From NCBI GenBank assembly GCA_026398615.1, contig JAPLSN010000042.1, positions 1 to 64,000 on the forward strand: a stretch of 64,000 bases of DNA, written 5' to 3'. A model generated the notes under the pieces. The model saw nothing but the letters and a program-made list of their open reading frames with translations, searched no databases and was not told the DNA's origin. Each line of letters begins with the position of its first letter. The stretch's first letter is position 1. Both the position numbers and the translations under genes were made by a program. Shown here piece after piece: positions 18,382-23,785 of the stretch. The DNA comes from Spirochaetota bacterium. GTDB lineage: Bacteria; Spirochaetota; Spirochaetia; Treponematales; UBA12059.

Positions 18382-19656
18382 ATGGGACGCGGAATTGCGG
18401 TCGAACGATCGCTGGCCACCGGACGCGGAGACGCCGTATTCCTCGGGATCGTAGCCGTGCTCGCGGGAGCGGGCATGGCCTTCCTGTACTCCGCGTCATT
18501 CGGTTACGCGCAGGCCATCGGGAAAACTGCCGACCATTTTTTCGTCCGCCAGGCCTGGGCGTTCCTGCCGGCAGCTTTCGCGTTCGCCGTCGCCGCGTTC
18601 ATGCCCGTCGATGTCATGCGCCGGCATTCCGCGCTGTTCGCATTCCTCTCCCTCGCTTCGCTCTTCCTGACTTTCGTACCAGGACTCGGCATAACGAGGA
18701 ACGGTGCCGCGCGCTGGATTGGCGTGGGGTCGGTGACCTTCCAGCCTTCCGAGCTTTTCAAGCCCGCGATCGTGCTGTACGCCGCCCACCTCTTTTCGAA
18801 AAAATCGGCCCGCGTGGACGATATCATGAACTCGACCCTGCCCCCGCTCTTCGTCACCGCAGTCGGAGCCATCGTCATCTACGCGCAGAACGATTTCTCC
18901 ACCGCCGTCCTCGTCGGCGCGGGCGCAACCGTGATGTTCTGGATCGCCGAAGTTCCGATCACCTTCTTCCTCGCGCTCTTTTCCATCGGCCTCCCGCTCG
19001 GGGCGCTCTCGGTACTCACGAGTTCCTTCCGCCTGAAGCGCATCATCAATTTCCTGTACCCGAATTACTCTCCCGAATCGATAGGCTACCAGCTCCTGGG
19101 CTCGTTCAAGGCGATCAGGGCGGGAGGCTTCTTCGGGCAGGGGCTCGGCCTGGGGACGGTGAAGCTCGCAAGCGTTCCGGAAGTGCAATCCGATTTCATC
19201 TTCGCCGCATGGGCGGAGGAAATGGGTTTCCTCGGAGTCGTCATCTTAATGGCGGCCTGGGGCGCCTTCGCATGGCGGGCATACCGCATTTCCCTGCTGT
19301 CGGCGGCCGCGGCGCGGCCAGCCGATCCGGGAAACGCCATGAACGGATACCGCGGCCGGGATTCAGCCTTCTCCGGCGGGATCGACGAAGGAACGAGATG
19401 GCGCTTCGTGTCCTACGCGTCGTTCGGACTCGCATCGATCCTCATCATGCAGGTTCTCATGAACGTGGGTGTCGCATCCGGTTCGGTGCCCGCCACCGGC
19501 ATATCGCTGCCGTTCTTCTCGGCGGGCGGGTCGTCACTCCTCGTGACTTCGCTCATGTGCGGACTCATATACAATTTTTCCAGGATGGTGGAGCAGGGCC
19601 CCGGGAACGGTACCGGGGACAGGGTGCGCGGACGCGTGGAGGCGATGAATGTCTGA
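18382..19656 (+). CDS. ftsW: FtsW/RodA/SpoVE-family septal peptidoglycan polymerase
   Basis: 424 residues, multi-pass membrane protein. Family marks include NGAARWIGVGSVTFQPSELF, QNDFSTAVLVGAGA, YQLLGSFKAIRAGGFFGQGL, QSDFIFAAWAEEMGFLG and the late ATGISLPFFSAGGSSLL. SEDS proteins polymerise lipid II; in this division-cluster position it should be FtsW rather than RodA. It overlaps ftsQ by 8 bp. Confidence 0.95.
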   Translation: MGRGIAVERSLATGRGDAVFLGIVAVLAGAGMAFLYSASFGYAQAIGKTADHFFVRQAWAFLPAAFAFAVAAFMPVDVMRRHSALFAFLSLASLFLTFVPGLGITRNGAARWIGVGSVTFQPSELFKPAIVLYAAHLFSKKSARVDDIMNSTLPPLFVTAVGAIVIYAQNDFSTAVLVGAGATVMFWIAEVPITFFLALFSIGLPLGALSVLTSSFRLKRIINFLYPNYSPESIGYQLLGSFKAIRAGGFFGQGLGLGTVKLASVPEVQSDFIFAAWAEEMGFLGVVILMAAWGAFAWRAYRISLLSAAAARPADPGNAMNGYRGRDSAFSGGIDEGTRWRFVSYASFGLASILIMQVLMNVGVASGSVPATGISLPFFSAGGSSLLVTSLMCGLIYNFSRMVEQGPGNGTGDRVRGRVEAMNV

Positions 19657-20458
19657 TTATGCAGTGTACCGGGGTCGGACGGCCGCCGGTTCCCGGGACG
19701 CGGAGATCGCCGTGCAGGTTTTCCTGGGATCGGCGTTGGCGGCCATCGTCGGCGCCTTTGTCCTCTTTTTCTTCGCGGTGCCGGCGACGACGATCACGCG
19801 TTACTCGGCCTCGGGCACCTCGATCCCGGTCGACGATCTCGTCCGCTGGTCCGGCGCGCGGGGCGGGATGTCCTGGTTCAACGCGGATTGCGAAGGCATG
19901 GCCCGGGCGATCGCGTCCAACCCGATGGTCGCCTCTGCCAGGGTGGCGCGCGTGTTCCCGAACGGCCTCCTTTTCGCCGTCGTCGAGCGCAAGGCGGTCG
20001 CGGTGGCCCTCGTCGAGACGGGAGCCGGCGTCGTGCCCGCGGCGATCGACAGGGAAGGGATCGCGTTTGCCGACGCCAGGAGCATCGGCAGGCTGGACTT
20101 GCCCGTCATCTCCGGCGTGCGCTTCGAAAACTTCAGGTTCGGCCTCGCGCTCCCCGACGGGATGATCCCCATGCTGGAGTCCCTTGCGCTCATCGCCGCG
20201 GAACAGCCGGCTCTCCTGTCCTTCCTCTCGGAGATCAAGCCCGTGAAGAGGGCATACGGCGAATTCGATTTCATGGTATACCCTCTCAACTACCGGACGC
20301 CCGTCCGCACCGGTTCGAGCCTCAACGGCCCGCTCCTGCAGTCTATGGCGCTGGTGCTTGACGTGGTGGAGTCGGGAGGATTTTCCGGGTCGATCGGAGA
20401 ACTGGATTTCCGGTCGGGAACCGTCGTGTATCGCTTGAAGGAGGGCGTTTCTGGCTGA
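19649..20458 (+). CDS. ftsQ: FtsQ/DivIB-type division protein
   Basis: 269 residues: short cytoplasmic N-terminus, one membrane helix (~24-48, VFLGSALAAIVGAFVLFFFA), then a POTRA-like domain (VDDLVRWSGARGGMSWFN through RVARVFPNGLLFAVVERKAV) and the beta domain. ERKAVAVAL is the typical POTRA end. GGAGG at 19638-19642 supports ATG 19649. It bridges the periplasmic divisome (FtsL partner). Its 3' end carries the AAGGAGGG that serves ftsA. Confidence 0.9.
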   Translation: MSDYAVYRGRTAAGSRDAEIAVQVFLGSALAAIVGAFVLFFFAVPATTITRYSASGTSIPVDDLVRWSGARGGMSWFNADCEGMARAIASNPMVASARVARVFPNGLLFAVVERKAVAVALVETGAGVVPAAIDREGIAFADARSIGRLDLPVISGVRFENFRFGLALPDGMIPMLESLALIAAEQPALLSFLSEIKPVKRAYGEFDFMVYPLNYRTPVRTGSSLNGPLLQSMALVLDVVESGGFSGSIGELDFRSGTVVYRLKEGVSG

Positions 20459-21698
20459 CAACATCGTAATCGGCCTCGACATCGGCACGTCCAAGACCTG
20501 CGCGGTGATCGGGGAGTACAACGAGAACGCCGTCCTCGAGATCACCGGCGTCGGCGTCGCGACCTCGACCGGGCTCCGCAGGGGCGTCGTGGTCAACATC
20601 GAGGCCACGCTCAGGTCGATCGCCCAGGCCGTGGAAGCGGCGGAACTCATGTCCGGCCGCGAAGTGCGGGACGCGTGGGTCGGGGTGTCCGGCGCCAACA
20701 TCGAAGGCATCAATTCCCGTGGCGTCGTGGCAGTTACCGGCAAGGGCAGGGAGATCGGGCAGGAAGACGTGGACCGCGTCATCGAGGCCGCCCGCGCGGT
20801 CGTCATACCGATGGACCGGGAGGTGCTGCACGTCATCCCGCAGACTTTCATCGTCGACGACCAGAAGGGAATACGCGACCCGAGGGACATGATCGGCGTG
20901 CGGCTCGAAGCCGAGGTCCACATCATCTCGGGCGCGGTCACGACGGCGCAGAACCTCATCAAGTGCGTCAACCGCGCGGGATTCAGGGCCAACGGACTCA
21001 TCCTGCACAGTCTCGCGGCGGCGAGGGCCGTGCTGTCGAACGACGAGAAGGAGCTCGGCTGCCTGCTCGTCGACCTGGGCGGCGGAACGACCGACGCGCT
21101 GGTCTACTCGGAAGGGGCTCCGTACTTCACGAGCGTCGTGCCGGTGGGCGGGATGCAGGTCACCAACGACATCTCGATCATGCTGAACGTCCCCATGGAC
21201 GCGGCGGAGCGCATCAAGCGCGAATCGGGCTGCTGCGACGCTTCCATCGTGGAGCCCGACGAGACGGTCATCGTGCCCGGCCTCGGGGGCAGGGCGCCGC
21301 AGGAAGTCCCGCGAACCCGAATCGCCGCGATCATGCAGCCGCGGATGGAGGAGATATACTCACTCGTGCTCGACCGCATCGAGACGATGGGTTACAGGCG
21401 GCTCATCAAGGGCGGCGTCGTGCTCACCGGGGGCGGCGCGCTCATGCAGGGTGCATGCGACCTGGCCTCCCGTGTGTTCGAGGTTCCCGCGAGGGTGGGA
21501 AACCCGATCACCCTGGGAGGCCTCGTCGAGGAGTACCGCAGCCCCCTGTACGCGACGGCCGTCGGGCTCGTCATGCTCGGCGCTGACCGCTTGCCGCAGG
21601 AGCGCCGCGACGGGGCGAAGGCGGTGAAAGCCGAGGAACGGGCGGGAACATCCGCCTTCAGGAAAATGGTGGATTGGTTCAAGCGCGAATGGACATGA
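20451..21698 (+). CDS. ftsA: Cell-division protein FtsA with probable CTG start
   Basis: Actin-like ATPase that tethers FtsZ to the membrane. The phosphate-1 loop IGLDIGTSKTCAVIGE starts a few residues after 20451, and LLVDLGGGTTDALVY and KGGVVLTGGGALMQGA are the later ATPase motifs. The first standard start in frame is GTG 20505, which would delete the phosphate-1 loop, and an in-frame TGA at 20436 blocks extension. The only sensible start is CTG 20451, placed 5-6 nt after AAGGAGGG (20438-20445), giving 415 residues, the normal length. The C-terminal WFKREW looks like the membrane-binding helix. It overlaps ftsQ by 8 bp and precedes ftsZ by 27 bp. Confidence 0.95.
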   Translation: MADNIVIGLDIGTSKTCAVIGEYNENAVLEITGVGVATSTGLRRGVVVNIEATLRSIAQAVEAAELMSGREVRDAWVGVSGANIEGINSRGVVAVTGKGREIGQEDVDRVIEAARAVVIPMDREVLHVIPQTFIVDDQKGIRDPRDMIGVRLEAEVHIISGAVTTAQNLIKCVNRAGFRANGLILHSLAAARAVLSNDEKELGCLLVDLGGGTTDALVYSEGAPYFTSVVPVGGMQVTNDISIMLNVPMDAAERIKRESGCCDASIVEPDETVIVPGLGGRAPQEVPRTRIAAIMQPRMEEIYSLVLDRIETMGYRRLIKGGVVLTGGGALMQGACDLASRVFEVPARVGNPITLGGLVEEYRSPLYATAVGLVMLGADRLPQERRDGAKAVKAEERAGTSAFRKMVDWFKREWT

Positions 21699-21725: not shown

Positions 21726-22904
21726 ATGGAACTGAAGTACGTGGAGGAGACGCAGATATCCGGGAGTCCGACGATCATCAAGATCATCGGATGCGGCGGG
21801 GGCGGATCCAACGCCGTCGACCGCATGATCGAAGCCGGCGTCCGCAACGTCGAGTTCATCGCCGCGAACACCGACATCCAGGTGCTCACGAAATCTAAGG
21901 CGCCCGTGCGCCTGGGACTGGGCTCGTCCGTGACGCATGGTCTCGGCGCCGGCGGGAAGCCGGAGATCGGCGAGAAGGCCGCACTCGAGGACCGAGACAT
22001 GATCGCGGACGCCCTGCGCGGCGCCGACATGGTGTTCATCACCGCGGGAATGGGAGGCGGCACCGGGACGGGCTCCGCGCCCGTCATCGCCCAGATCGCG
22101 CGCGAGCTGGGCGCCCTCACCGTGGCCGTGGTCACCAAGCCATTCGATTTCGAGGGGAGGCTCAAGGCGAGGATTGCCGAGGAGGGCATCGAGCGGCTCA
22201 GGCAGGCCGTGGACACCCTCATCGTGATCCCGAGCCAGAACCTCCTCAAGATCGTCGAGCGCAAGACCCCGATCCGCGAAGCCTTCCGGACCGCGGACGA
22301 CGTACTCAGGCAGGGCATGCAGGGGATCAGCGAGATCATAACGGTCCCCGGCGACATAAACACCGATTTCTCTGACGTCAAGACGATCATGAAGGACAAG
22401 GGCAACGCGATCATGGGCATCGGTTCGGCGAAGGGGGACAACCGAGCGATCGAAGCCGCCGAGCGTGCGATCTCGAACCCGCTGCTCGAGGACGCGCGTA
22501 TCGACGGGGCGCACAACGTGCTGCTTTCCATCACGGGAGGCGAGGATTTCTCGCTCACTGAAGTCGAGGAGATCGCGTCCATCGTGCGGGAAAAGGCCGA
22601 CGAGGACGTCTTCTTCAAGTACGGCATCGTCATCGACCCGGACATGAAAGATGAAATCCGCGTCACGGTGATAGCCACCGAGTTCTCGAGGCCGATGGAC
22701 GGCGACAGGAAGGAACAGGCCGCGCACGCGGAGAAGCCGAAGGCCTTCGACGAGTACATGTCGCCGGACGAATGGCAGAACATCGTGCGGAATTCGGCCT
22801 CTTCCCTGCGCGGCCTCTCCGGGAGGAACGATGCCGAGGACGAGCTCGAAATACCCACGATCATCCGCGACAGGCGTTTCGCTCCGGACCGGAGCCAAGC
22901 CTAG
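21726..22904 (+). CDS. ftsZ: Cell-division GTPase FtsZ
   Basis: 392 residues. GTP-binding sites are intact: [16 protein letters not shown], the tubulin signature [13 protein letters not shown], and the synergy loop [14 protein letters not shown]. The extreme C-terminus [12 protein letters not shown] is the conserved peptide that binds FtsA. A GGGGAGGGG ribosome-binding site precedes the ATG. It ends the division cluster, and xerD starts 2 bp later. Confidence 0.99.
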
Positions 22905-22906
22905 GC

Positions 22907-23785
22907 ATGGAAAAGATCCTGGATCGATACGGAGCCTATCTCCTCTCGATGAAGCGACGTTCGCCGCTCACGCTTGAAGCGTACGTCAGGGAAATCCGTA
23001 CGCTCGACGCGTGGCTTTCGGGGCGCGGAGCGTCGGTGACCAACGTCGGGACGAGGGAATTGCTGGAGTACCTCGTGTCCAGGAAATCGGCCGGGCTTTC
23101 AGGCAGGACCATGGCGCGCATCATATCCAGCCTGCACGCCTTCTTCAAGTTCCTCAAGCTGGAAGGCCTTCGCGCAGACGACCCGAGCGCACTGCTCGAG
23201 ACGCCCCGGCAGGAACGGACCCTGCCCGAGGTCCTGCCGCCGGAATCCGTGGACCGCTTCCTGGGAAGCATCGACGTCTCGACGCCGAGGGGCGTCCGCG
23301 ACCGCGCTCTCTTCGAGCTCATCTACTCCTGCGGGCTCAGGATCAGCGAAGCGTCCGGGCTGACCTTCGACAACCTTTTCCTCCGGGAACGCATCCTCAA
23401 GGTCATCGGCAAGCGGAAGAAGGAACGGATCGTGCCGTTCGGCGACGAGGCCGCTCTCTGGCTTTCCCGCTACATCGGGGAAGCCCGGCCCCTGCTGGCC
23501 AAGAACGTGAAGACACGGCGGGTGTTCCTGAACCATTCGGGGAAGGGCATCTCGCGGAAGGGCATCTGGAAGCGCTTTTCGCAGTTCAGGGACCTGGCGG
23601 GAACCGGTGGCAAGGTCCATTCGCTCAGGCACTCCTTCGCGACGCACCTTCTCGCGGGGGGCGCCGATCTCAGGACTGTCCAGGAGCTCCTCGGCCATTC
23701 GGATATAGCCACCACGCAGATCTACACGCATGTGGAGACGGGGATGCTCGCCGCATCGCACGAGAAGTTCTTCCCGGAAACGTGA
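22907..23785 (+). CDS. xerD: XerD-type tyrosine recombinase
   Basis: 292 residues from ATG 22907. N-terminal SAM-like DNA-binding domain (~1-90), then the catalytic domain with the tyrosine-recombinase set: Arg in [12 protein letters not shown], Lys in [12 protein letters not shown], HxxR in [12 protein letters not shown], His in [10 protein letters not shown] and Tyr in QIYTHVETG. Expected to resolve chromosome dimers at dif together with XerC. A second recombinase of the same size lies at 27916-28878; the XerD/XerC labels are tentative. The gene follows ftsZ directly. Confidence 0.88.

Follow-up and report, generated by a model that had tools for sequence, protein, structure and literature searches.

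In Streptomyces, translation of the sigma factor gene sigR begins at a GTC codon that is conserved in 32 of 34 species and preceded by a conserved AGGAGGTG Shine–Dalgarno (SD) sequence. According to the part of the report available, this GTC start keeps SigR below its partner RsrA, and replacement with ATG, GTG, or TTG leaves SigR unbalanced relative to RsrA (PMC5472188). The same text describes Escherichia coli infC, an essential gene whose noncanonical start (ATT) limits its own expression. In termination–reinitiation overlaps, the downstream start lies inside the end of the upstream gene, so that terminating ribosomes are already on the spot (available part of PMC10666635). Suboptimal starts in prokaryotes are accompanied by strong, conserved SD sequences, and a survey of start-codon switches recorded 2 changes to CUG among 61,358 ancestral AUG starts (PMC5622118, in the part available).

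The start of the division gene ftsA in the window (the whole 64,000-nucleotide stretch of spirochaete DNA analyzed here) shares features with each of these systems. As in sigR, a noncanonical start codon and its SD sequence are conserved, the gene is located in an operon, and the start lies in an overlap, with partial coupling described for the sigR operon; the product of sigR is kept proportionate to its partner, and the same may apply to FtsA. The two differ in that sigR starts with GTC, keeps it within one genus, encodes a sigma factor, and has a measured codon effect (PMC5472188, available part). Like infC, ftsA is an essential gene with a noncanonical start, but infC is autoregulated by its own product, IF3, whereas ftsA has no known link to IF3. 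The overlaps treated in the available text of PMC10666635 are of −4 and −1 nt, whereas ftsQ and ftsA overlap by 8 nt, and ftsA has its own strong SD sequence and a CUG start. The pairing of a suboptimal start with a strong, conserved SD sequence resembles the compensation reported in PMC5622118, the available part of which holds no description of a CUG kept across families, as it is in ftsA here. In the open-licence PMC literature, no paper was found on a CTG/CUG start of ftsA or on an essential division gene that retains CUG across four families. A conserved noncanonical start that limits output is a known kind of arrangement; the ftsA case is unusual in its codon, its gene, and its evolutionary depth.

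Organization of the ftsQ–ftsA junction

An FtsW-like ORF, an ftsQ-like gene, ftsA, and ftsZ are arranged consecutively in the window. The features of this region are as follows.

19649 to 19656, + strand: control junction between the FtsW-like ORF and ftsQ, an 8-nt overlap with ATG (ATGTCTGA)
19649 to 20458, + strand: ftsQ-like gene (POTRA_1) with an ATG start; PF08478, E 6.9e-8
20436 to 20438, + strand: in-frame TGA, the upstream end of the ftsA frame
20438 to 20445, + strand: SD sequence AAGGAGGG, 5 nt before CTG
20451 to 20453, + strand: ftsA start codon CTG, the sole NTG between the in-frame TGA at 20436 and GTG 20505
20451 to 20458, + strand: start/stop overlap of ftsQ and ftsA, 8 nt, CTGGCTGA (CTGgcTGA)
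20451 to 21698, + strand: ftsA, 415 amino acids counted from CTG; TIGR01174, PF14450, PF02491
20505 to 20507, + strand: GTG, the first canonical in-frame start, within the conserved fold and rejected for ftsA
21726 to 22904, + strand: ftsZ with an ATG start after GGAGGGG; TIGR00065, 423.1 bits

The ORF upstream of ftsQ (18382–19656) is taken here to be SEDS/FtsW-like, and the ORF directly 3′ of ftsZ (22908–23785) is one that we take to resemble a tyrosine recombinase of the Xer type. The identity of FtsA was established by a profile search, in which TIGR01174 matched with 457.9 bits against a cutoff of 175.85 over profile positions 2 to 369 of 371. PF14450 (158 bits) and PF02491 (110.9 bits) indicate an FtsA with the SHS2 domain in the actin-like fold.

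Start site of ftsA

The ftsA frame is open from 20439 to 21698. The reading-frame check found the in-frame TGA that the sequence-only reading had named as the block to upstream extension, and the codons that follow it are AGG AGG GCG TTT CTG (20451) GCT GAC AAC ATC GTA ATC GGC CTC GAC ATC GGC. The ftsQ stop codon TGA occupies 20456–20458, and CTG 20451 is thus inside ftsQ; this 8-nt overlap had been missed in that reading. The spacing of 5 to 6 nt given there holds, at 5 nt from AAGGAGGG and 6 nt from AAGGAGG (20438–20444). Its statement that CTG is the only start-like codon in the interval stands for NTG codons, but the ATC codons at 20463, 20469, and 20481 are near-cognate in principle, although they are at least 17 nt from the SD sequence.

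Counted from CTG, the alignment of solved FtsA chains begins at residue 3 or 4, which confirms that GTG 20505, the first ATG, GTG, or TTG in frame, is downstream of the beginning of the conserved N terminus. Because the chains and TIGR01174 align from near this N terminus, a start at GTG 20505 would lose the first conserved strand and loop, and no ATG, GTG, or TTG start is compatible with the conserved FtsA protein.

The junction was compared over 52 genomes of the window's family (f1) and two related families (f2 and f4). Positions −13 to −7 relative to the CTG, which lie in the SD sequence, are nearly invariant, and there is little or no variation in the CTG and the ftsQ TGA, whereas the spacer varies. 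The ftsQ stop at +5 to +7 is TGA in all 52, and the start/stop overlap reads CTGNNTGA in 51 and TTGNNTGA in 1. In the ftsQ frame, the second base of CTG is a wobble position with four-fold degeneracy; it is nevertheless T in 52 of 52 of these genomes and in 42 of 42 CTG genomes of a further family, f5, whereas the neighboring ftsQ wobble sites (−2 and +4) are variable. The invariant T is the mark of a start codon. For residues 4–18, the mean entropy was 0.63, 0.47, and 1.53 at codon positions 1, 2, and 3, respectively, a pattern showing that the sequence before GTG 20505 is under protein-level selection. On these sequence comparisons, it is nearly certain that CTG 20451 is the start site of ftsA.

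A start at GTG 20505 had been considered as an outcome that would overturn this assignment. It has in its favor that GTG is the first canonical in-frame start codon, with the upstream homology left untranslated; however, only 12 of the 52 genomes have GTG at the aligned position, the upstream substitutions are protein-like, and the protein would lack the first strand and the IGLDIGTSK loop of the actin fold. We regard translation from this codon as scarcely credible.

Conservation of the CTG start among related families

The order-level sample consisted of 213 genomes: 23 from f1, 1 from f2, 80 from f3 (Treponemataceae-type), 30 from f4, and 79 from f5. The start region was read in 22, 1, 78, 29, and 77 of them, respectively; those left unread were G001 and G101, where the matches begin at residues 115 and 104, and four genomes with no match. 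The automatic start-picking rule assigned no start in 2 of the 78 f3 genomes and none for G089 and G202, and later tallies are based on corrected starts. G209, in which CTG directly precedes ATG, was counted as ATG, and the aligned codon of G160 is CTG.

The aligned codon was CTG in 22/22 genomes of f1, 1/1 of f2, 28/29 of f4, and 44/77 of f5, but in 0/78 of f3. The single exception in f4 (G098) has TTG, and the other f5 genomes start with ATG (22), TTG (7), or GTG (4). The first 66 f5 genomes were mostly better scoring, and the last 11 added 2 with CTG and 9 with ATG. The comparison with related spirochaetes proposed earlier thus gave CTG in 95 of 129 genomes of f1, f2, f4, and f5, and the recurrence of the same codon, SD spacing, and overlap in four families strongly supports the reading that CTG 20451 has to be the ftsA start. 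Re-reading of named loci from separate projects found the same junction with CTG in 9 of 15, several of which are genomes also in the sample.

Outside the order, 27 genomes were read, and in two of them (G218 and G259) the rule picked a CTG that is directly followed by ATG. In two f6 genomes of the same class (L082 and L083), the ftsA start reads CTG then directly ATG after GAGGAG, and either codon may be the one used. Four f5 genomes (L308, L310, L311, and L312) have CTA or TTA at the CTG site followed by ATG (AGGAGG-N6-CTA/TTA-ATG), a remodeled start with a long SD spacing. In the draft genome G047 (C158, 7546–8563), the ftsA match is in two pieces with a TGA within the frame, probably because of an assembly fault.

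Specificity of the CTG start for ftsA

Neighboring junctions were examined in 36 genomes with enough flank. The NTGNNTRA overlap recurs at the FtsW-like/ftsQ junction in 33 of 36, and the start in this overlap-based tally was ATG in 29, GTG in 4, and CTG in 0, with 3 not resolved by the rule. By eye, ftsZ has ATG after a G-rich SD sequence in all 33 readable rows (3 of the 36 genomes were unread).

A gene-pair screen compared one contig (C2, 292 kb) with 400 kb of G014, giving 118 homologous pairs after exclusion of 8 pairs with less than 35% identity. Homology ahead of the first canonical start was flagged in 36 of the 118, and an SD-backed CTG with no canonical alternative, aligned in both genomes, was found for ftsA only. 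Inspected by eye, the other 35 flagged pairs were shadow frames, contig or alignment edges, and short run-ons into the upstream gene, and they were set aside. The pattern AGGAGG-N4–7-CTGNNTGA occurs 3 times in the whole genome and 2 times in the reversed control; the two matches other than ftsA are in long reading frames, have no credible start, and look like chance. The corresponding pattern with ATG occurs 5 times in the genome and 1 time in the control. The CTG start is specific to ftsA among the operon neighbors and the genes compared.

SD strength, RNA structure, and initiator tRNA

The pairing of the ftsA SD sequence with the anti-SD has a median energy of −11.6 kcal/mol. In f5, a strong SD sequence (−10 kcal/mol or lower) accompanies 55 of 55 non-ATG starts but 6 of 22 ATG starts (p 1e-4, uncorrected for kinship). 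The trade-off was absolute in the first 66 f5 genomes (13 with ATG versus 53 others), whereas strong SD sequences were present in 6 of the 9 further ATG genomes, and it amounts to 2–4 phylogenetically independent pairs. The relation between SD sequence and start codon in f5 is thus a tendency, and it is consistent with the general compensation described in the available part of PMC5622118.

Folding of the region around the ftsA start in five genomes gave no significant RNA structure (z −1.34 to 1.11), which leaves coupling by an SD-masking hairpin without support. One tRNA of this genome has a GGG/CCC anticodon stem and a C1 mismatch, which we take to mark the initiator type, and its anticodon is CAU. 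The 42 tRNA hits of this genome include none with anticodon CAG. ARAGORN assigned the Leu anticodons TAG, CAA, TAA, and GAG to these hits; the absence of CAG from this G+C-rich genome may reflect a gap in the assembly or a tRNA overlooked by the search.

Evolutionary history of the CTG start

An FtsA tree was constructed from 95 sequences with the start region excluded. On this tree, CTG is at the base of f1, f2, and f4 and on the early branches of f5. Ten changes between CTG and non-CTG were counted in total: one start-codon change within f1, f2, and f4, over 41 rows and a tree length of 11.2 changes per site, and eight CTG/non-CTG changes within f5 (46 rows). This was a quick tree without bootstrap, and alone it does not fix the direction of change. 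The sequences are most simply read as showing that CTG originated once, before these families diverged, and was then lost repeatedly in f5.

Proposed mechanism and alternatives

Here, we propose a mechanism for the initiation of ftsA based on the junction and its conservation. CUG 20451 is presumably read as fMet by the ordinary initiator tRNA. The near-perfect SD sequence within the end of ftsQ and the ribosomes finishing ftsQ 5 nt downstream would together deliver a ribosome to the CUG. CUG initiation complexes are reportedly less stable than those on AUG, GUG, and UUG (PMC11497404, in the part available), and the codon is expected to initiate poorly in these bacteria as well; the strong SD sequence and the ftsQ overlap would offset this weakness. 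FtsA synthesis would be held low relative to the operon neighbors, FtsZ above all, and tied to the translation of ftsQ. We rate it as rather probable that FtsA output is kept low by a weak CUG that lies behind a maximal SD sequence and is supplied with ribosomes coming off ftsQ. Under this proposal, selection maintains the combination of CUG, SD sequence, and overlap for the low FtsA output that it gives. We infer that CUG initiates poorly in these bacteria, that ftsA is coupled to ftsQ, and that selection acts on the FtsA:FtsZ ratio. By analogy with sigR, the CUG may keep FtsA scarce relative to FtsZ. The earlier suggestion that the codon tunes FtsA below FtsZ is plausible, with sigR as its precedent. 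Counter to a dosage role, f3 and ~40% of f5 do without CTG, and the link between CTG and dosage could be partly historical.

The low rate may instead be conditional, with IF3 repressing the CUG start so that FtsA synthesis tracks the state of the translation machinery or the growth rate, as for infC and sigR. IF3 represses starts other than ATG, GTG, and TTG, and both infC and sigR are so regulated (PMC5472188, available part). A constant low rate accounts for the same sequence facts, and we consider the switch unlikely. An equally tentative proposal is that nearly all FtsA comes from ribosomes that have just left ftsQ, with the CUG being an IF3-sensitive start that serves reinitiation only. 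If true, the supply of the Z-ring membrane anchor would be set by FtsQ synthesis together with the state of the translation machinery, forming part of a translational clock for division conserved over several families.

A serious alternative is that CUG arose once and has stayed because its bases also encode the C terminus of FtsQ, with no role in dosage. In the ftsQ frame, the C of CTG occupies the second position of a codon (TCT, CCT, GCT, or ACT), and thus a change to ATG, GTG, or TTG alters an FtsQ residue. However, genomes of f1, f2, and f4 already carry Ser, Pro, Ala, Thr, or Val at this residue, and the f5 genomes with other starts have Phe, Ser, Leu, Asn, Tyr, Val, Arg, or Asp. In some genomes, a single base change has replaced CTG in place (TTG in G098, G034, and G196; GTG in G102), yet such escapes are rare in f1, f2, and f4, and AGGAGG is kept equally firmly. 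The tolerance of the FtsQ residue and the in-place escapes weaken the case for constraint by FtsQ coding, which we regard as quite improbable.

The SD-like AAGGAGGG before the TGA C of ftsQ recalls the stimulator of prfB, and ribosomes might shift frame at this point to yield an FtsQ–FtsA fusion. The spacing suits initiation at CTG, the invariant T at the wobble site indicates NTG, and CTG has been replaced in place by TTG, GTG, or ATG in some lineages. The ftsQ stop varies among TGA, TAA, and TAG, the latter two being found in 33 of 42 f5 CTG genomes, so that the conserved slippery stop and the lack of an independent start that characterize programmed frameshifting of the prfB type are not seen here, and this candidate was rejected. 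The C terminus of FtsQ lies outside the membrane and FtsA in the cytoplasm, which also counts against a fusion; we consider it highly improbable.

An unusual initiator tRNA that reads CUG as a normal start would account for its tolerance, but the initiator-type tRNA has the anticodon CAU, no CAG was found among the 42 hits, and CTG starts are not seen in other genes, making this exceedingly improbable. A sequencing or assembly error of ATG, GTG, or TTG, for which the window's assembly of 43 contigs might speak, is excluded by the CTG at the aligned codon across four families in many separate projects; the refutation that the sequence-only reading had named fails, as the relatives do not have a canonical start that would point to an error.

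The start codon CUG is almost unused by bacteria and is regarded as rare and short-lived. The ftsA CUG appears to be as old as the common ancestor of four families of treponeme-like spirochaetes, while the operon neighbors use ATG, and the same noncanonical codon and SD sequence are present in relatives from all four. Gene finders restricted to ATG, GTG, and TTG will truncate or mis-start FtsA in CTG genomes. The weak start preferred here would be a naturally occurring, testable example of selection for weak initiation and may provide a handle on how the FtsA:FtsZ dosage is set outside the model bacteria.
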